A DNA stretch of 64,000 nucleotides, from NCBI RefSeq assembly GCF_004331075.1, contig NZ_SJNX01000005.1:62001-126000 (forward strand), read 5' to 3'. The translations under genes and the position numbers were made by a program. Positions 15,272-45,283 of this stretch are shown in pieces (positions within the stretch are counted from its first letter, which is position 1; the number at the start of each line of letters is the position of its first letter). The DNA comes from Acinetobacter brisouioides (GTDB taxonomy: Bacteria > Pseudomonadota > Gammaproteobacteria > Pseudomonadales > Moraxellaceae). Below the pieces are notes generated by a model. It saw only the letters and a program-made list of their open reading frames with translations. It was not told the origin of the DNA and made no database searches.

Positions 15272-15455
15272 GTATATGTACCTGAGAGCTTCAACTTGTA
15301 GCAAAAAAGTATGGCTACAAATTTTCCTCCTTCGGTGAATCACGCTATGCAGGTGATTTCTCTCCAGATTTTTGAGATAGATTACAGTCCTTTTGCCTGA
15401 GAGTTTCCGGGGTCGTTGCTCCTTCGGCGAGCCTATGGGTGACTTCTCTCCTGTA
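15272..15455 (-). promoter_or_regulatory. Tandem glycine riboswitch (gcvT RNA) in the gcvHPT leader
   Basis: Read on the minus strand, two aptamers follow each other. The first (about 15455 to 15383) has GGAGAGAAGTCACC, CCGAAGGAGCAA and AACTCTCAGGCAAAAGGAC. The second (about 15370 to 15272) has GGAGAGAAATCACC, CCGAAGGAGGAAAAT and AAGCTCTCAGGTAC. The linker between them is short, as in cooperative glycine riboswitches. In this class glycine binding usually turns on gcv expression. The switching mechanism in the 270-base stretch to gcvH is not evident; I see no classical terminator with a T run there. Confidence 0.95.
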
Positions 15456-15764
15456 ATGCGCGTATTTAAGCATAAACAATGCCAAAATTTCTATATAGAC
15501 CTAAGTTATATTTCCGATTATTTACAGTCAGCACACCGCAAATTAAACGATAGGTCAATATTCCAAAGCCATCTTATTTTTAGGTAGAAAAATTCAAAAC
15601 CAGATTCATTCTCGCCAATATATTTTCTACTCAATGTCTGATTTTATATAAATCCCACCCCACATCATGATGCATCGATAGTGTATTTGATTTCTTCAAA
15701 ATATTGGCTTGCACACCTGTCCTTCTTATCTACTCTCTCAGCGCTGCGCGGTCATAACCTTTTA

Positions 15765-28814: not shown

Positions 28815-28973
28815 ATGAATACTAGAAAAACCACCAAAAAAATTAGTAAAACACGTATTTACCGTGCAGTAGCCAGTTCTAGTGCTATTGAAACAGGTCA
28901 TTCAATTCAATCAATTGAAGCTCGCCTAAAAAATAATATTAGCAAATATAGTCACTTAACTCTAGCTCAATAA
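28815..28973 (+). CDS. Small protein, possible VbhA-like antitoxin of the adjacent Fic protein
   Basis: 52 residues starting MNTRKTTKKISKTRIYRAVA, with a good ribosome-binding site and an extended -10 promoter. The segment AVASSSAIETGHSIQSIEAR resembles the helix of small Fic antitoxins (VbhA, YhfG), whose inhibitory motif is S/T-x3-E-G/N. Here SSAIE-T-G gives S-x3-E, with the G one place later. The stop overlaps the convergent fic stop by seven bases. VbhA-type antitoxins normally precede their toxin in the same operon, so a convergent partner would be unusual. The ORF itself is well supported; the antitoxin role is inference. Confidence 0.55.
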   Translation: MNTRKTTKKISKTRIYRAVASSSAIETGHSIQSIEARLKNNISKYSHLTLAQ

Positions 28974-29584
28974 TTACTGATTAAAATATCTCTGACTAAC
29001 CTCTCTATGTGTTGGTAGTCTCCTGCGACACCTGCTTGTATTGAGCCAAAATAAAAATTCTTATGTTTATCCCAAAGTGAGTAATCCAAGGGCTCATATC
29101 CTGCTTGTGTCGCCATGACATCCATGACCAAACGGGAAATACGACCATTCCCTTCCCGGAAGGGATGAATCAAAATAAACTCCACATGGCTTTTTGCTAA
29201 AAAACTAATTAAAGTTTCAGTATCCATAGCATTTAATTGGCCATACGAATCCAAAAACTCACTTTCAAAGGGCTTGATTTGTTTCGATAAAAATTGGGCC
29301 GCGGCAAAGCGAAAATCACCTTTAGACATATCGACTGTTCTTAGATTACCAGCCCAAGAATATATGGGTTTTAGCCACTTTCGGTGCCAGTCCATAATGT
29401 CCTGAAAAGACAACTGTTCTATAGAAAATTCATTGGCAAAAATGTAGTTATACAATTGAAGTAATAAATGCTCTTCAGCTTCCTGCATTTCTGTTTCAGA
29501 AGTGATACCGAGTTTGTTCTTCAGCACTCGCCCATTTGAACCTAGTTCATAATCACCTTCAGTTGTACAAATTGAATATTTCAA
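28967..29584 (-). CDS. Fic-domain protein (probable AMP-transferase)
   Basis: 205 residues forming little more than a Fic fold. The active-site motif is complete: HPFREGNGRISR near residues 139-150, matching HPFx(D/E)GNGRxxR. The flap region before it is KPIYSWAGNLRTVDMSKGDF. Fic enzymes usually transfer AMP from ATP to a target protein. No inhibitory S/T-x3-E-G/N helix is visible inside the protein, so if active it should need a separate antitoxin, for which the convergent 52-residue ORF is a candidate. It lies in the island's defence-type cargo next to a second fic gene. Confidence 0.9.
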   Translation of the reverse strand: MKYSICTTEGDYELGSNGRVLKNKLGITSETEMQEAEEHLLLQLYNYIFANEFSIEQLSFQDIMDWHRKWLKPIYSWAGNLRTVDMSKGDFRFAAAQFLSKQIKPFESEFLDSYGQLNAMDTETLISFLAKSHVEFILIHPFREGNGRISRLVMDVMATQAGYEPLDYSLWDKHKNFYFGSIQAGVAGDYQHIERLVRDILISNY

Positions 29585-29784
29585 ATGTGCTTTTCCTTCT
29601 TAAACAACTTTTTTAGTTAGCATACGTCAGGATAATAGTGAATACCCATATTAGAATCATGATTAGATTTAAATTATAGGGCATCTCTTCATCTTGAAGA
29701 AAAAACTTTATGGATAGTTGCATGTCATTCAAGAAGTTTATTTTCCCATCTAAGCTTAATCTACTTAAACGTCACTTGAGATTT

Positions 29785-30816
29785 TTATTTACTCGTCTTC
29801 CTATACTTTTGCTTCGGGCTTTTTGGTTTATCTGGAATCATACGTTCAATTAAACCTGCTTCTATTGCAGGATTCAGGTAATTCTTTTGGAAAGTTGCTC
29901 TGTGAGTTAAACCCACAAATTGCATCAACTCAGCCAAGGTATAATCATCTTGCCCTAATGCTGAAATTAAACGCTGTACTTGATCACTGAGTTCTTTATG
30001 GACATGTATGCCAGCTTGAGCGGTAACATGATCGCTAGCTTGAGCGGTGTCTTGATCGTTTTGTGTAGAGTCAAGGATTGCATCTAAAATCATCTGCAAA
30101 ATGAATTCAATAAATGGTGCTGAATCAGTACGATCTGTACTTGCTTGCAATGCTTCGTAATAAGCTTTTTGATTTTGATAGATCAGACTTTCAACTGGGA
30201 TATTGGCAAAGATTGAATTCCACCCACTCAGGATCAATGTTTGCCATAGTCTACCCATTCGGCCATTACCATCTGCAAATGGATGGATAAATTCAAACTC
30301 ATAATGAAATACTGAACTTTGGATTAGTGGATGTATTTCTCTATCATTTAACCATTCTAGTAAATCAGCCATTAAACGTGGAACTTGATTGGCAGGTGGA
30401 GCCATATGTACCACTCGATCACCTGACATTACGCCCACACCACCATGACGATATTGACCGATTTCATCAATCAAGCCTGTCATTAAAATTTGATGTGCTT
30501 GTAATAAGTCTACTTCTTGGCTTGGCTGCCATTGTTGAAATGCTTCATAGGCTTTAATGGCATTGCGCACTTCCTGAACTTCTTTCGGAGGTGCAATCAC
30601 AGTCTTACCATTTAGAATCGCCGTGATTTGTTCTGTACTTAACGTATTCCCTTCTATCGCAAGTGAACCTTGAATAGTACGGATACGATTGGCTTTTCTG
30701 AGTTTTAAGCTGTCCTGAATTTCCTCTAAAACAGTCAAACGCCCTATATTCTCACTGATCTGAGCAATCAGATGAATGATTTTTGAGGTGATGGTATAAG
30801 GCGGTTGGTATTTCAT
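29785..30816 (-). CDS. Fic-family protein with N-terminal inhibitory motif and C-terminal wHTH
   Basis: 343 residues. The N-terminal helix has GSLAIEGNTLS near residue 50, a perfect S-x3-E-G inhibitory motif (class II, self-inhibited). The active site HPFADGNGRMGR lies near residue 177. The C-terminus (residues about 265-330, LISALGQDDYTLAELMQFVG then THRATFQKNYLNPAIEAGLI) looks like a winged helix. It starts one base after the hsdR stop, so it is the last gene of the hsd operon. Fic genes are often found inside type I restriction-modification loci; the reason is not established. Autoregulation through the wHTH is possible. Confidence 0.9.
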   Translation of the reverse strand: MKYQPPYTITSKIIHLIAQISENIGRLTVLEEIQDSLKLRKANRIRTIQGSLAIEGNTLSTEQITAILNGKTVIAPPKEVQEVRNAIKAYEAFQQWQPSQEVDLLQAHQILMTGLIDEIGQYRHGGVGVMSGDRVVHMAPPANQVPRLMADLLEWLNDREIHPLIQSSVFHYEFEFIHPFADGNGRMGRLWQTLILSGWNSIFANIPVESLIYQNQKAYYEALQASTDRTDSAPFIEFILQMILDAILDSTQNDQDTAQASDHVTAQAGIHVHKELSDQVQRLISALGQDDYTLAELMQFVGLTHRATFQKNYLNPAIEAGLIERMIPDKPKSPKQKYRKTSK

Positions 30817-30817
30817 A

Positions 30818-33800
30818 CTAAATTTTTCCCCCTACCCCTTTAAACTTTTCAACGAACGCTGCAATTTTTTGAAAAATGCTCTGCTTTTTGGTTAAGTATT
30901 GTGGGTTTAATGGACTCATTTTAGGCAGAATAGCATTGAGCTCAGTGCCATTATCACTGGCAAATTCCCGTTTCAGCGAGGTCGCAATATAACGTCTCGC
31001 TGCATCCTCATTCAGGTTCTCGGCGCCAATCAGTTCTTGTACTTCACGCTGTTGTTCTGCTTGAGCAAAGGTGAAGAAAGTATCAATCACGCTAGCCTTA
31101 TCACCAATCTGATCTAAGTCTGTTTGATTAATAAAATCGACCAGTAGACTTTCTTTGGCACGGTTGCCTAGGTTAGCACGGATCACTCGGCGCACATCCT
31201 CAACTAACGTTGCCTTATCTTTCACCTTTTTATTGTTCTCAAAAATCAGCTCTAGAATGTAATCCAGATTGATTTCTTGTGATTTCAGCAAGTCTACTTC
31301 AAAAACTACATCATCCCAATCAATGGTCGATTTTTCTTTTTGTTCAGCCAATTTTTCCCGACGTAACCAATCACGAATATCATTATAAGTGGAACGGTAA
31401 TCTTGGATTTTTCGTTCAGCTGGCATCTGAATGGTTTGCAAGGCTGACAGATCCTCATCGCTTAAGTAATGTTGGGTCTTGAATACTTCAACTGCCACAA
31501 GGTCATTCGCATCAACATTCTGCAAAGCCTTTAGGCTGGCGTATTCATCGTAGTTTTGCAACACATTTTCTACACGCAAGTATTCGCCAAATAATTTCGT
31601 AAAGGCTTTTTTATCTGATTCTTTAAAAATTTCATCGGGGTTAGGAAAGCGTTGTTCTAATTCTTTCACAATATCCACAAAACCGCGCCGTGCATCACCA
31701 GTCACCACATCGGTAAAGCCTTCCATGTATTCCTTATAACTTTTTTCTAGCACCACATTCTTAGTGTTTTTATCACCAAATAAAGTAATCGCATCAATGG
31801 TCGCTTGCTCTAGGTCTCGAAAAGTAACAATATTGCCGAACGTTTTGGTGGCATCATAAATACGATTGGTACGCGAATAGGCCTGCATCAACCCATGATA
31901 ACGTAGATTTTTATCTACAAATAAAGTGTTAAGCGTAGGGGCATCGAATCCTGTCAGGAACATCCCTACCACAATCAGCAAATCTATTTCTTTGGCTTTG
32001 ACTTGCTTGGCAAGATCACGGTAATAATTTTGAAAACCCTTACTATCAACACTAAAATTGGTTTTAAACAATTTATTGTAGTCCGCAATTGCGGCGTTTA
32101 AAAACTCTTTTGCACTACTGTTCATGGCTGAAATATCAAAACTTTCATCCTGAATATCACCTACGGCATCTTGCTCCTCATTGGCTGCAAAGGAAAAAAT
32201 AGTGGCAATCTTTAAAGGCTTGTCACTGTTTTTTTGCAGGTTGTTGAGTGACTCATAATACAGCTTGGCAGCTTCTACACTACTGACGGCAAACATGGCA
32301 TTAAAGCCCTTGCTACCCGCTTGTAAGCGGTGCGTTTTCTGGCGGAAATTCTTCAGGATGTACTGGCTAATTTCACGGATGCGGTCGGGATGCAATAAGG
32401 CTTGTTTGTTTTCCGCTGCACTGAGTTTTTTCTCATCCTGTTCGGTTTCGATGATTTTAAACTGTGGACGTACATCATTGTAGTCCACTTTAAATTTCAG
32501 CACTTTCTCATCACGAATCGCATCGGTGATGACATAAGAATGCAACTCACGGCCAAATACGCTGGCTGTAGTTTCAGCACTAAGGGCGTTTTGTGGAAAA
32601 ATAGGCGTACCCGTAAAGCCAAACTGATAGTACTTTTTAAACTTCTTCTTCAGGTTTTTCTGAGCTTCACCAAACTGGCTGCGATGACATTCATCAAAAA
32701 TAAATACTACTTGCTTGTTATAAATGGGCAAGTCACCTTCACTTTTAATCAGGTTATTGAGTTTTTGGATGGTGGTGACAATAATTTTATTATCATCTTT
32801 ATCCAAGTTCCGTTTTAAACCTGCGGTACTGTCTGAACCATTGACGCTATCGGGCGAAAAGCGCTGGTATTCTTTCATGGTCTGATAATCAAGGTCTTTG
32901 CGATCTACCACAAAAAAAACCTTGTCAATAAAATCCAGCTCAGTTGCTAAACGTGCTGCTTTAAAACTGGTCAAGGTTTTGCCAGAACCTGTAGTGTGCC
33001 AAATAAAACCGCCACTTTCGGTATTGTTCCAGTTTTTGGCTTGATACGAACTTTGGACTTTCCACAAAATGCGCTCGGTAGCCGCAATCTGGTAAGGACG
33101 CATCACCAACAAGGTATCGCTGATATCAAAAACAGAGTAATGCAGCAGCACATTCAGCAAAGTATTTTTTTGGAAAAAAGTAGCCGTGAAGTCCTTCAGA
33201 TCTTTGATTAGGCTATTATCGGCCTTGGCCCAGTTCATAGTGAAGTCGAAACTATTTTTATTACGTGTCGTCGTATTGGCAAAATAACGACTATCAGTCC
33301 CATTAGAAATCACAAACAGCTGTAAATATTTATAGAGGGAATTTTCGCTATTAAAACTTTCTTTGCTGTAACGGTGTACCTGATTAAAAGCTTCACGGAT
33401 GGCGATGCCACGTTTTTTTAGTTCGACCTGCACCAAAGGCAAGCCATTTACTAAAATGGTGACATCGTAACGGTTTGCATGGCTGCCTTTTTGCTCAAAC
33501 TGCTTAATCACCTGCACTTTATTACGAGCAACATTCTTCTTATCTAAAAGGTAGATGTTTTGAATATGCCCATCATCAAAGACAAAATCATGAATATAGT
33601 CGTCATGAATCTTGCGGGTTTTATCAACAATACTGTCACTCGGTCTATCCAAATAGATTTCAACAAAGCGTAACCATTCGCCATCAGAAAACTGTACGTT
33701 ATTCAATGCTTGAAGTTGCTCACGTACATTTGCCAACAAAGCTTTAGCATTGTTTAAAATGGGCAAATATTCATAGCCTTGATTGACCAAGTCCTGAATG

Positions 33801-33916
33801 AATTCGCGCTCTAAATCCCCTTCACTTTGGTAGCTGTCAACCGCTTGCCATTCTTTGCAATATTTATCTAAGACAATAAAATTGTTAGTTTCGGCAATAG
33901 GCTTATAATTAGTCAT
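30818..33916 (-). CDS. hsdR: Type I restriction enzyme, HsdR subunit (type IC-like)
   Basis: 1032 residues from the ATG at 33916 ([13 protein letters not shown]), which has GGAATC upstream; an in-frame extension to 33958 is less likely. The N-terminal nuclease shows [19 protein letters not shown], with the E-x-K of a PD-(D/E)xK site. The SF2 motor follows: Walker [21 protein letters not shown]-like box [12 protein letters not shown], motif III TGTPIF and a later motif VI region [10 protein letters not shown]. Length and order match EcoR124I HsdR. HsdR pulls DNA with ATP and cuts it after collision. It is fourth in the hsdM-hsdS-RelSpo-hsdR-fic operon. Confidence 0.96.
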
Positions 33917-33976: not shown

Positions 33977-34537
33977 TTAGATAAAATTGCGTTTAAATTT
34001 TTCGTGATTTTCAATATTGCTTTGAATATCTTCATGATTCCAAATTTGCAATTCCCAAGGGAAATAAAAATTACTTCTGTTTTTAAAGTAGATATGCAAA
34101 CCACGATAGCCTTCTTTATCCCGCAAATACCAGTTTTTAAGGTTAAGTTCATCTTGCCAGTCATCTAGCAAATCCATCACGCTGTCAATTTCTTCAGTCG
34201 TTAAAATAATACGTGCACCAAAAATATCATTAAGCCAATTGTTTACAGGATATTGGTCTTCACGAGCAGAATAGCGCTGTATTTTGTCATCAATACTTTC
34301 ACGGGTTTTTACTCGGTAAAAATATTTGATGTCTATATCTGCGGTCATCAGGTAGTCATTAATGCTTTCGTGTAAGGTTAAACGGTATTTATAAATATGC
34401 GCAGCAGGCACGTGCCTAATGGTTTTAGAGAGGTTAATTTTCTCAATTTTGCCATGTTCAAAATAATCCTTGGAAAAATCACGGTGCAAACGATTGACTT
34501 CGCGAATGAGTTGTTTAACTTGACCAATTTTTTCCAT
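33977..34537 (-). CDS. RelA/SpoT-type (small alarmone synthetase-like) protein inside the hsd operon
   Basis: 186 residues from the ATG at 34537, preceded by GGAG; an in-frame TTG at 34552 is the alternative. Synthetase-like motifs in order: YRVKTRESIDDKI near residue 76 (R-x-K…S…K), LNDIFGARIIL near 102 (Mg-binding D and the G-x-R), KEGYRGLHIYF near 140 and PWELQIW near 160 (E-x-Q-x, with Trp where Arg is usual). No HD hydrolase, TGS or ACT domain. The protein may make (p)ppGpp-like nucleotides or pyrophosphorylate another target, as toxic SAS enzymes do. It lies 18 bases after hsdS and about 60 before hsdR, embedded in the operon. Confidence 0.8.
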   Translation of the reverse strand: MEKIGQVKQLIREVNRLHRDFSKDYFEHGKIEKINLSKTIRHVPAAHIYKYRLTLHESINDYLMTADIDIKYFYRVKTRESIDDKIQRYSAREDQYPVNNWLNDIFGARIILTTEEIDSVMDLLDDWQDELNLKNWYLRDKEGYRGLHIYFKNRSNFYFPWELQIWNHEDIQSNIENHEKFKRNFI

Positions 34538-34555: not shown

Positions 34556-35929
34556 TCAATGTGATTGGATAGAGGATTGAGGAAAACTTAACAGCAAATC
34601 ACGATAATACTCGTACTGTTTTTGGCGTAGCTCAATTTCACGCGGTAAACCTTCAGTAATTGAACTGGTTAAAGTATCGAATTTATCTAAAATAGTGACA
34701 ATTCGCTTTTGCTCATCAAGGTGAGGAATTGGAACATAAAAAGAAAAGAGTTTACTACTTTCAATAGATGCTACAGATCCGCCTGTTTTCCTAGCTGCCC
34801 GCAAAATATCCTCCCCTCTTGATCTAATCATATGTGCAAGGTAACTAGGCATAATATGGTTGTGTGGTATTACAGCTTTCATGTCTTGATTAAGTGCAAC
34901 AGGTACAGGAATTAGTGCACTTGGCAGTAATTTATCTAAAATACTTGAGCGAACAACTATTGCAATTGAGTTTGCTGGTACTAACTTTGTCGAAGAGTTT
35001 TCAATCGCATCTTCGGTAATATAGTCCTGAGCTGAATCAACAATTGGTCGCCCCATATCTTTAGGCGAAACCCATGGGATAGTTCCATTTTCCCAATAAT
35101 CACTATGGCTTTTAGATGGAGTTCCCCCACCGTACCAAGTACCAACATCTCTCAACGTCATCCATTTAGCCTCTATCCGCCGTCCGCTCTCGTCCGCTCT
35201 CGTCCGCTCTCGTCCGCTCTCGTCCGCTCTCGTCCGCTCTCGTCCGCTCTCGTCCGAAGGCGATTGTGCTTCGCTCATATCAAATGTCAATAATTTATCT
35301 CTAAAATATTGATATTGTTGATTTCTCAGTTTAAGCTCCGCAGTCAGCTCCGCAGTCAGCTCCGCAGTCATAGCAGTAAATGCATCCAAAATTCGTACAA
35401 TTTCGGCTTGAATTTCAAGGGATTTTTTAGGATTCTCTGGGCTTGGAATGGGGATTTGAAATTTTCTAAAACCATCCATATCTACAGAGGCAAAACTTGA
35501 CATCGTTGTATTTTTTTTACACCAATCTGCCAATAAAAAACAATAATAAAAAATAAACTTCATATCAAAAACTTTTACATAGCTATCTTTCAAACTTAAA
35601 TTGGTAAACCTTTGATTTGCCAAATATGGAACAGTAATTAATGCATGTTCACCAATCGTGGCCGATGTTGAAATTATGATGGAATTGGCAGGAAATAATT
35701 TCCCCCCTTTTACAGCACTTTCCGAGATTTTTTGTAATGAGTCTCCAAGGATTTGACCATTCTCGCGGATGTCATCCATCCTAAACCACGGAACAGAACC
35801 ATTTTCCCAAAATTCTTTTTTTGATGTCGATGGTGTATAGCCATTTTTTAAATGAAATATTTCTGAAACTGCTTTCCATTCAACCTGTGCGCCATCAAGT
35901 AGCTTTTGCATAAAATCTGTATTACTCAT
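34556..35929 (-). CDS. hsdS: Type I specificity subunit HsdS with two tandem-repeat switches
   Basis: 457 residues, longer than the about 400 usual for type IC. First target-recognition half: residues 1-175. Central conserved helix ([11 protein letters not shown]…[16 protein letters not shown], 181-216) contains three TAEL units at 188-199, the same repeat that sets spacer length in EcoR124I/II. Next is a low-complexity linker of [10 protein letters not shown] units (226-251), coded by a 10-nt repeat. Second half starts at [13 protein letters not shown] (257) and ends in a second conserved helix ([11 protein letters not shown]…[16 protein letters not shown]). The start overlaps the hsdM stop (ATGA). 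As sequenced, the frame is open and full length. Confidence 0.95.
35181..35256 (-). repeat. 10-nt tandem repeat in hsdS, 7.6 copies (phase-variation candidate)
   Basis: Seven perfect CGTCCGCTCT units (plus-strand notation) plus a partial CGTCCG. Ten is not a multiple of three, so gain or loss of one unit shifts the hsdS frame. Both alternative frames stop at once on the downstream side: TAG at 35173-35175 or TAA at 35166-35168. The ATG of the second half lies at 35159-35161. Confidence 0.95.
35335..35370 (-). repeat. 12-nt TAEL repeat in hsdS, three copies
   Basis: Three perfect GCTCCGCAGTCA units (plus-strand notation) encode [12 protein letters not shown]. In EcoR124I (two copies) and EcoR124II (three) the copy number changes the spacer of the recognised sequence by one base pair. 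Slippage here stays in frame. Confidence 0.95.
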
Positions 35930-37479
35930 ACCACGTCTTCCCCTTCAATCTCTGCCACTATCGCATCAATCTCTTTACGAAGTTGATCAATTTTAGTCAC
36001 AGTGGTTTTTAACTCGGCATTAAGCTGAAAAATATCCACCTTTTCACGCGTGTCTTTGGCTTCAACATAGCTACTCACGGACAGATTATAATCGTTGGAT
36101 TGAATCGCCTCTAAAGGTACAGACTGGGCAAAATGGTCTAAATTGGCCTTGCTGTCAAACACCTGCATGATCTGTTCAATGTGTTCATTTGTCAGAGTAT
36201 TGGTATTGGTTTCTTTTTTGAATAACCCACCAGCATCTATAAACTGGGTTGTAGTGTCTGTTTTATGTTTGGATAGAACCAGAATGGTGACAGCAATGGT
36301 GGTGCCATAAAACAAGTTCGATGCAAGCGAAATGACCGTTTCTACATAGTTATTATCTACCAAATATTGGCGAATTTTCTGCTCAGCACCACCTCGGTAA
36401 AAAATACCAGGGAAGCACACAATGGCCGCTCGACCCTTAGCAGATAAATAACTTAAGGTATGAAGCACAAAGGCAAAATCGGCTTTAGATTTGGGAGCAA
36501 GTACGCCTGCTGGGGCAAAGCGTTCATCATTGATTAAGGTTGGGTCGTCCGAGCCAATCCACTTCACCGAATACGGTGGGTTAGACACAATCGCATCAAA
36601 AGGTTTATCATCGCCAAAGTGAGGTTCTCTTAAGGTGTCGCCCAACTGGATATTAAACTTATCGTAATTGATATTGTGTAAAAACATATTCATACGCGCA
36701 AGGTTATAGGTCGTATGATTGAGCTCTTGTCCAAAAAAACCGTCTTCTATAATGTGAGCATCAAAATGTTTTTTGGCTTGTAAAAGTAAAGAACCCGAAC
36801 CACAAGCAGGATCATAAATTTTATTGACGCTGGTTTGTTTGTGCATGGCAAGCTGGGCAATCAACTTTGACACATGCTGCGGAGTAAAAAATTCTCCTCC
36901 TGATTTTCCTGCATTGGCTGCATAGTTAGAAATCAGAAACTCGTAAGCATCACCAAACAGGTCGATATGACTGCCTTGAAAATCCCCAAAATCTAACCCT
37001 GCTACGCCCTTGAGCACAGCAGCCAAGCGGATATTTTTATCTTTGACAGTATTACCCAAACGGTTACTGGTTGTGTCAAAGTCAGCAAATAGGCCTTTAA
37101 TGTCCTGCTCCGACGGGTAGCCATTGGCAGAACTTTCTATAGCAGCAAAGATAGCAGCTAAGTCAGTATTCAAACTCTCGTTATTATTCGCATTTTTAGC
37201 AATATTGCCGAACAATTGACTTGGGTAGATGAAGTAACCCTTGGTTTTAATCGCATCGTCTTTGATATCTGTAGTAATAACTTGGTCAGAAAGTTCAGCA
37301 TATTTAATGCTGTCGTCACCGCCTTCGATATAACTGGCAAAATTTTCACTAATAAAACGATAAAATAGCGTACCTAAAACATATTGCTTGAAGTCCCAGC
37401 CATCAACTGCGCCACGGACATCGTTGGCTATCTGCCAGATTTGGCGTTGCAGTGCTGCGCGTTGTTGGGTACTGGTCAT
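35926..37479 (-). CDS. hsdM: Type I DNA methyltransferase, HsdM subunit
   Basis: 517 residues, N6-adenine methyltransferase of the restriction-modification complex. The N-terminal HsdM helical domain ([20 protein letters not shown]…[12 protein letters not shown]) is followed by the AdoMet site [16 protein letters not shown] near 222 and the catalytic motif [11 protein letters not shown] near 297. [20 protein letters not shown] is typical of type IC. The C-terminal tail carries a coiled-coil-like stretch for binding HsdS. It is the first gene of the five-gene operon, with a perfect inverted repeat about 40 bases upstream. Confidence 0.97.
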
Positions 37480-45020: not shown

Positions 45021-45171
45021 CTGAATAAGCTCATAGACTTTGGAACATACTATAGGGTTAGTTCTAAATGTTTTACACTGTGTCATTGGTACATGATCTA
45101 TAGCCCATTTGAGTATGGGCTATACTGTGCTAAGCAACTCACTGTATTGAATTAACTAGATAAGATATTGT

Positions 45172-45283
45172 TTATATTATTAATATATATTACTTATAGT
45201 TAATAATATATATTACCTGTTAAGTATCTTAATCTGTTGTTTCGATAAGTTCGTTCATCTACATAACGCTAATCGCCGATGTA
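45172..45283. other. AT-rich repeat region, possible replication origin or operator
   Basis: The 13-mer TAATATATATTAC occurs at 45181-45193 and again at 45204-45216, 23 bases apart (about two helical turns), inside an almost pure AT tract. A palindrome CCGAT-GT-ATCGG follows at 45272-45283. The whole sits between two divergent Gp2-like genes, 380 bases apart. Origin function is a guess from position and composition. Confidence 0.4.

Follow-up and report, generated by a model that had tools for sequence, protein, structure and literature searches.

The hsd operon and its genes

The window, meaning the whole stretch of 64,000 nucleotides of Acinetobacter brisouioides analysed here, carries an operon composed of hsdM, hsdS, a small gene called rel, and hsdR (Table 1). 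HsdM shares 435 of 516 residues (84%) with the HsdM subunit of EcoR124 (7bst_D), and HsdR finds the EcoR124 subunit as its top match with an E value of 0; by sequence, the system is therefore of type IC and belongs to the EcoR124 family. According to the available part of PMC10030836, subunits of the type IC family are usually more than 70% similar to a family member, a value that HsdM exceeds. The central region of HsdS holds three tandem TAEL units, as is characteristic of type IC, and the hsdR gene within the operon is of the same family.

The best PDB match of HsdS is the EcoR124 HsdS, both by sequence and by fold (Foldseek rank 1). Residues 253-453 are identical to the C-terminal half of the EcoR124 protein at 149 of 201 positions (74%), which suggests RTCG as the second half-site, while TRD1 differs from that of EcoR124. 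The best PDB match of the Rel protein is the toxSAS toxin FaRel2 (E 4.8e-7), and we regard rel as a passenger in the hsd operon.

Table 1. Genes and sequence features of the hsd operon in the window.
Feature	Position	Strand	Basis
hsdM, type IC methyltransferase subunit	35926..37479	-	PF02384, PF12161; EcoR124 HsdM match (7bst_D)
hsdS, 457 aa, two TRDs	34556..35929	-	PF01420 in two stretches
rel, small RelA/SpoT-domain protein, 186 aa, between hsdS and hsdR	33977..34537	-	PF04607
hsdR, type IC restriction subunit	30818..33916	-	TIGR00348; EcoR124 HsdR 2w00, E = 0
TAEL tract, three perfect 12-nt units, inside helix 1 (model helix 167-214)	35335..35370	-	sequence, TRF, model
10-nt slippage array CGGACGAGAG, 7.6 perfect units	35181..35256	-	TRF
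TAG stop, reached when n = 0 mod 3	35173..35175	-	simulation; same offset in 7/7 alleles
TAA stop, reached when n = 2 mod 3	35166..35168	-	simulation
Second-half ORF, internal in-frame ATG 35161-35159, TRD2 and helix 2, 201 aa	34556..35161	-	frame analysis
GAGG, weak candidate ribosome-binding site 8 nt before the internal ATG	35170..35173	-	sequence; inference

Two repeat tracts in one hsdS gene

An earlier note on this DNA had claimed that three TAEL units and a 7.6-unit 10-nt array, separated by about 80 bases, occupy the same hsdS gene. Both arrays were found by TRF to be perfect, and the gap between them measures 77-78 bases. The TAEL array was reported at 35334-35370 (3.1 copies, 100% match, score 74) and the 10-nt array with the same 100% match and a score of 152. 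Among the 32 TRF rows in the window, the 10-nt array has the highest score and the TAEL array is joint second, tied at 74 with a row at 45165-45216 that is made of imperfect copies. The 10-nt unit contains no stop codon in any frame, and the array is translated as a linker of a repeated 10-residue unit. A chance repeat was ruled out, as the same array occurs at the same place in seven alleles (see below). A role as a promoter or regulatory repeat was likewise rejected, since the array is coding and sits between two domains; the region holds 27 promoter-like sites, against 27.2 in shuffled sequences.

In what follows, n is the number of full CGGACGAGAG units, and reading frames were computed by simulating repeat numbers. 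Full-length HsdS is obtained when n = 1 mod 3, as with the natural n = 7, which gives 457 aa. Lengthening the window gene by one unit yields a protein of 257 aa, and shortening it by one unit yields 248 aa. Since the repeat is free of stops, every slip that breaks the frame gives the first half plus a short tail, while three-unit steps preserve the frame and add just 10 linker residues. The simulated counts bore out the prediction that a one-unit slip runs at once into TAG or TAA, and the computed lengths agree with the half-HsdS of about 255 residues, containing TRD1 and the TAEL helix, that had been proposed. The TAG is in natural use in the alleles of A. kyonggiensis and A. colistiniresistens. 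In the three alleles that carry a different TRD2, the second stop is TGA instead of TAA at an identical offset, and no natural use of a stop at this offset was seen among the seven alleles.

The earlier note had overlooked that the second half of the gene is itself open, with an in-frame ATG behind a GAGG. This ATG lies 4 nt past the TAA and 11 nt past the TAG, and the second-half ORF is open in both naturally split alleles. Within 20 codons after the array, five of the seven alleles have an in-frame ATG, four of these five being close relatives; A. gerneri and A. bouvetii lack it. The GAGG belongs to a linker motif present in all seven alleles, including those without the internal ATG; its assignment as a ribosome-binding site is therefore weak, and this counts against the idea of a restart. 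A slipped hsdS may yield two halves instead of one truncated protein, as judged from the reading frames.

Predicted structure of the linker region

The HsdS model was calculated with AlphaFold2 from 21 sequences, reduced from 27 (L149 and L156 were dropped for stops, and L148, L165, L180, and L182 were also left out), and reached a mean pLDDT of 69.8 and a pTM of 0.53. In this model, the TAEL units lie within a helix spanning residues 167-214, residues 220-250 have pLDDT values below 50, and TRD2 starts near residue 254. Much of TRD2 also falls below 50 (271-316 and 328-343), so low confidence alone is no proof that the linker is disordered. Its reading as an insert comes from the alignment with relatives; together with the model, this predicts that the array encodes an unstructured insert between helix 1, the first dimerisation helix, and TRD2.

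Among plasmid relatives, eight loci were inspected (7 of 1503 protein-match records and 1 of 20 array-region records). They carry 2-3 TAEL-type units, and none of the eight has the 10-nt array. In one of them, L127, hsdS is broken after 264 aa, and an IS5 transposase is annotated downstream. An array of at least three 10-nt units was likewise absent from the 53 HsdS relatives in viral_contigs, in the stretch scanned. Location of the operon on a known plasmid was considered and rejected: the hsdM-hsdS query matched 17 of 72,556 plasmid records, all at 60-80% identity and none covering 80%, and a distant search of the array region gave 20 records, again none covering 80%, in searches that may omit records very near the window's own genome.

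Natural variation among Acinetobacter alleles

Of 175 genomes of the genus, 6 contain the two-unit pattern of the 10-nt array; one more (G224, locus L078) has just one unit, at the corresponding position in hsdS. In genome_contigs, 19 stretches match the two-unit pattern. Five of them carry one of the two tested HsdS strings, all from Acinetobacter and with 3.6-18.6 units; in the other 14, with 2.3-5.8 units, both strings are missing. The earlier note had proposed counting both repeats in related genomes, and both tracts indeed differ between alleles (Table 2), in data that comprise one assembly per species, mostly drafts. Four further loci, L077 (genome G197), L082, L083, and L084, have no array and were not included in the comparison of seven alleles.

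Table 2. Repeat numbers and predicted products of the seven hsdS alleles.
Allele	TAEL units	n	Product
Window allele	3	7	full length
A. higginsii CIP 70.18	2	7	full length
A. colistiniresistens NIPH 2036	3	18 (186-base perfect repeat in a draft assembly; size may be wrong)	ends at TAG, 288 aa
A. kyonggiensis ANC 5109	4	3	ends at TAG, 242 aa
A. gerneri	3	4	full length
A. bouvetii	3	7	full length
G224 (L078)	3	1	full length

Five of the seven alleles are full length (n = 1, 4, 7, 7, and 7) and two are truncated at the TAG (n = 3 and 18). In both split alleles (L081 and L075), the second half, hsdM, rel, and hsdR are all open. Compared by eye, the seven alleles show three TRD1s and three TRD2s around one shared central cassette.

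The alignment of four operons (window, A. higginsii, A. colistiniresistens, and A. kyonggiensis) covered hsdM through hsdR, a span of 6.63-6.77 kb. In all six pairwise comparisons, indels occur at the two tracts only, and the substitution counts are 2, 38, 40, 106, 108, and 138. The lowest count belongs to A. colistiniresistens and A. higginsii: over 6650 bp, both substitutions lie outside hsdS, while the TAEL numbers are 3 and 2 and the arrays have 18 and 7 units. As the other five pairs show 38-138 substitutions, only this one pair is nearly identical. In A. gerneri (4 copies) and A. bouvetii (7 copies), GATC stands instead of GAGC throughout the array, and the one unit in G224 is of the GATC type as well; such uniformity is expected where arrays turn over by slippage.

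The array-less locus L077 (G197:C13:225000-234500) matches the window at 99% in rel and 97% in hsdR over 4176 bases, and carries other TRDs and two TAEL units. On sequence grounds, hsdS seems to have been exchanged here by recombination inside the operon.

Comparison with known systems

The closest known case is the NgoAV hsdS gene of N. gonorrhoeae, which has 0-3 LEAT repeats and a frameshifting poly-G tract, and whose PacBio motifs vary with both (available parts of PMC6789123 and PMC9577141). The combination of tetrapeptide repeats and a truncating tract in one hsdS is thus already known, and the earlier note, which knew of each device only by itself, is contradicted by PMC6789123. Like NgoAV, the Acinetobacter gene has central tetra-amino-acid repeats followed by a frameshifting simple repeat past the first half. 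The tetrapeptide number differs between close relatives (2, 3, 3, and 4 in the four operons), and a non-triplet repeat past the first half toggles between full-length and truncated HsdS. In the passages on NgoAV, the truncated HsdS is active with a palindromic motif, the full-length form is active with another motif, and the spacer and half-site depend on both repeats.

The two genes also differ. The Acinetobacter gene has a 10-nt array instead of poly-G and TAEL instead of LEAT, and its three-unit length steps fall in an inserted linker. The hsdS2 of NgoAV in strain FA1090 is described, in the part seen, as not encoding an active protein, whereas the second half in the window is complete and has its own ATG, as known from its sequence. 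What sets the Acinetobacter gene apart is the 10-nt unit, the tolerant inserted linker, the intact second half, and the occurrence in several Acinetobacter species with different TRDs.

In EcoR124I and EcoR124II, two and three TAEL units give spacers of N6 and N7, respectively (excerpt of PMC3874165). The window system resembles this pair in HsdM, in the C-terminal half of HsdS, and in TAEL numbers of 2 or 3, and differs in TRD1 and in the array, which is missing from the aligned PDB sequence. No natural frameshift switch in EcoR124I or EcoR124II was described in the portions of the literature examined. The same excerpt of PMC3874165 reports that the half-HsdS proteins of EcoR124I delta-50 and EcoDXXI homodimerise and read palindromes, and that co-expression of the EcoDXXI halves restores wild-type activity. 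In these proteins, a TRD1 half stays active and homodimerises after most of TRD2 is lost; a frame-broken Acinetobacter gene likewise leaves a TRD1 half. They differ from what is proposed here in being mutants with no reversible natural switch, and they retain part of TRD2, as far as the excerpt describes them.

Simple repeats occur in about 7.9% of hsdS genes (excerpt of PMC7394358). This repeat of Acinetobacter hsdS was not found in the literature searched, the Atack 2020 repeat survey lying outside it, and a text search of papers for the letters of the repeat gave only unrelated titles among the matches listed. Literature on phase-variable hsdS in Acinetobacter contained nothing on the window gene, by titles and the beginnings of abstracts, and the word Acinetobacter is absent from the main text of PMC7394358 and PMC13076061, in the parts available.

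Proposed mechanism and alternative explanations

We consider it likely that this type IC HsdS is governed by two independent slippage tracts, with the TAEL repeat setting the spacer and the 10-nt array toggling between fused and separate halves. The TAEL copy number would determine how long the first dimerisation helix is and thereby the spacer of the bipartite target, two units giving N6 and three N7 by analogy with EcoR124I/II. The analogy is strained by the four units of A. kyonggiensis, which exceed the 2-3 units in the available part of PMC3874165. When n = 1 mod 3, the two TRDs would be fused in one chain; at any other n, translation would end just past the array, leaving an N-terminal half with TRD1 and the TAEL helix. 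Dimers of this half would be expected to recognise the TRD1 half-site as a palindrome. Against the analogy with half-HsdS proteins, the stop precedes TRD2 here, while the EcoR124I and EcoDXXI half mutants retain part of it; for a stop before TRD2, NgoAV is the closer case. The claim of two specificity layers in one gene stands as regards anatomy, frames, and natural variation. Its other part, a change of methylation motif by either tract, is argued by analogy with EcoR124I/II, EcoDXXI, and NgoAV, and we infer likewise that slippage causes the length differences, that the homodimer is active, and that expression or phage defence may be affected.

It must be considered that the truncated alleles could be mere loss of function, which counts against a dual switch. 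One alternative is plain ON/OFF phase variation: the slipped HsdS would be inactive, the array would turn off both modification and restriction, and the TAEL number would matter only in the ON state. Simple repeats in Type III mod genes and in the hsdM of non-typeable H. influenzae do act in this way (excerpt of PMC7394358), and the half proteins of Acinetobacter would bear some 20-70 extra linker residues, the natural split products being 242 and 288 aa. However, activity is known for type IC halves of comparable length in EcoR124I delta-50, EcoDXXI, and NgoAV (excerpt of PMC3874165), the array sits between the halves and away from the start codon, and both split alleles keep an open second half; we therefore hold this explanation to be unlikely. 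Even less probable, in our judgement, is a length-tolerant linker without any switching role, the frame-broken alleles being assembly errors or dying copies. It would fit with variation known from assemblies only, mostly drafts, in which perfect repeats are error-prone, and with five of seven alleles being in frame. Yet A. kyonggiensis is out of frame with an array of merely 36 bases and has open hsdM, second half, rel, and hsdR, and a 10-nt unit is ill-suited to such a linker, as two-thirds of its lengths break the frame.

A more elaborate possibility, which we put forward only tentatively, is that the array switches the covalent linkage of the halves: a restart at the internal ATG would make both, and TAEL would shift the spacers. 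The ribosome would halt 4 or 11 nt before the ATG behind the GAGG and then restart. If so, TRD1-TRD1, TRD1-TRD2, and TRD2-TRD2 pairs could form, and one repeat step could replace the single motif by a blend of as many as three, constituting a combinatorial epigenetic switch within one gene.

If the dual-slippage mechanism holds, an operon common to several Acinetobacter species would retarget methylation in two ways by replication slippage. Mixed epigenetic states could then exist in one clone, with a bearing on phage defence, DNA exchange, and perhaps expression. The gene shows that the NgoAV arrangement extends beyond gonococci. The natural variants with very little other difference provide material for testing both tracts against motifs, and the intact second half offers a direct way into the question of fused versus free TRDs.

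The rel slot and other features

Rel matches occur in 19 of 175 genomes, and 8 of the 19 lie in the hsd operons described here. Seven other Acinetobacter loci (L118-L124) carry Rel relatives with 61-66% identity, and no relative of the window hsd genes was found within about 1.5 kb of them (blastp, ORFs of at least 80 aa). From this distribution, Rel may have entered the hsd operon as a mobile module. Array-less type IC operons in three Acinetobacter genomes (L020, L022, and L082) and at L028, of the same order, have a PF13166 AAA_13 protein in the rel slot, and the gene that follows hsdS in plasmid CP057689 bears the annotation 'anticodon nuclease'. The PF13166 protein presumably resembles the anticodon nuclease PrrC. 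By its position, Rel may be another kind of guard toxin directed at tRNA that occupies the slot of PrrC, an arrangement not described in the portions of the toxSAS and type I restriction literature examined.

Among the 53 HsdS relatives in viral_contigs, seven (L140, L169, L171, L175, L183, L185, and L186) have a (GACA)n tract, 7-16 units long, with another half-HsdS behind it; an anchored pattern search returned the same seven contigs and no others. In six of them, a complete two-TRD HsdS precedes the tract, while in L186 only 106 aa are open before it. At the TAEL position, five have an exact 12-nt tandem and L140 a degenerate protein repeat, while no repeat was seen in L186. The tract is in frame in L169 and L183, so that three-TRD proteins result (628 and 634 aa); the remaining five have the last half in a different frame, which amounts to a normal HsdS plus a separate half. 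These genes resemble the Acinetobacter hsdS in being HsdS relatives with a frameshifting tract, and differ in that (GACA)n lies behind the second half, so that a third half is gained or lost, rather than between halves 1 and 2.

Elsewhere on the minus strand of the window, two Fic/DOC-domain proteins (PF02661) follow hsdR at 28967-30816, the first having SoFic as its best PADLOC match, and a glycine riboswitch (RF00504, 69.7 bits) lies at 15375-15463.
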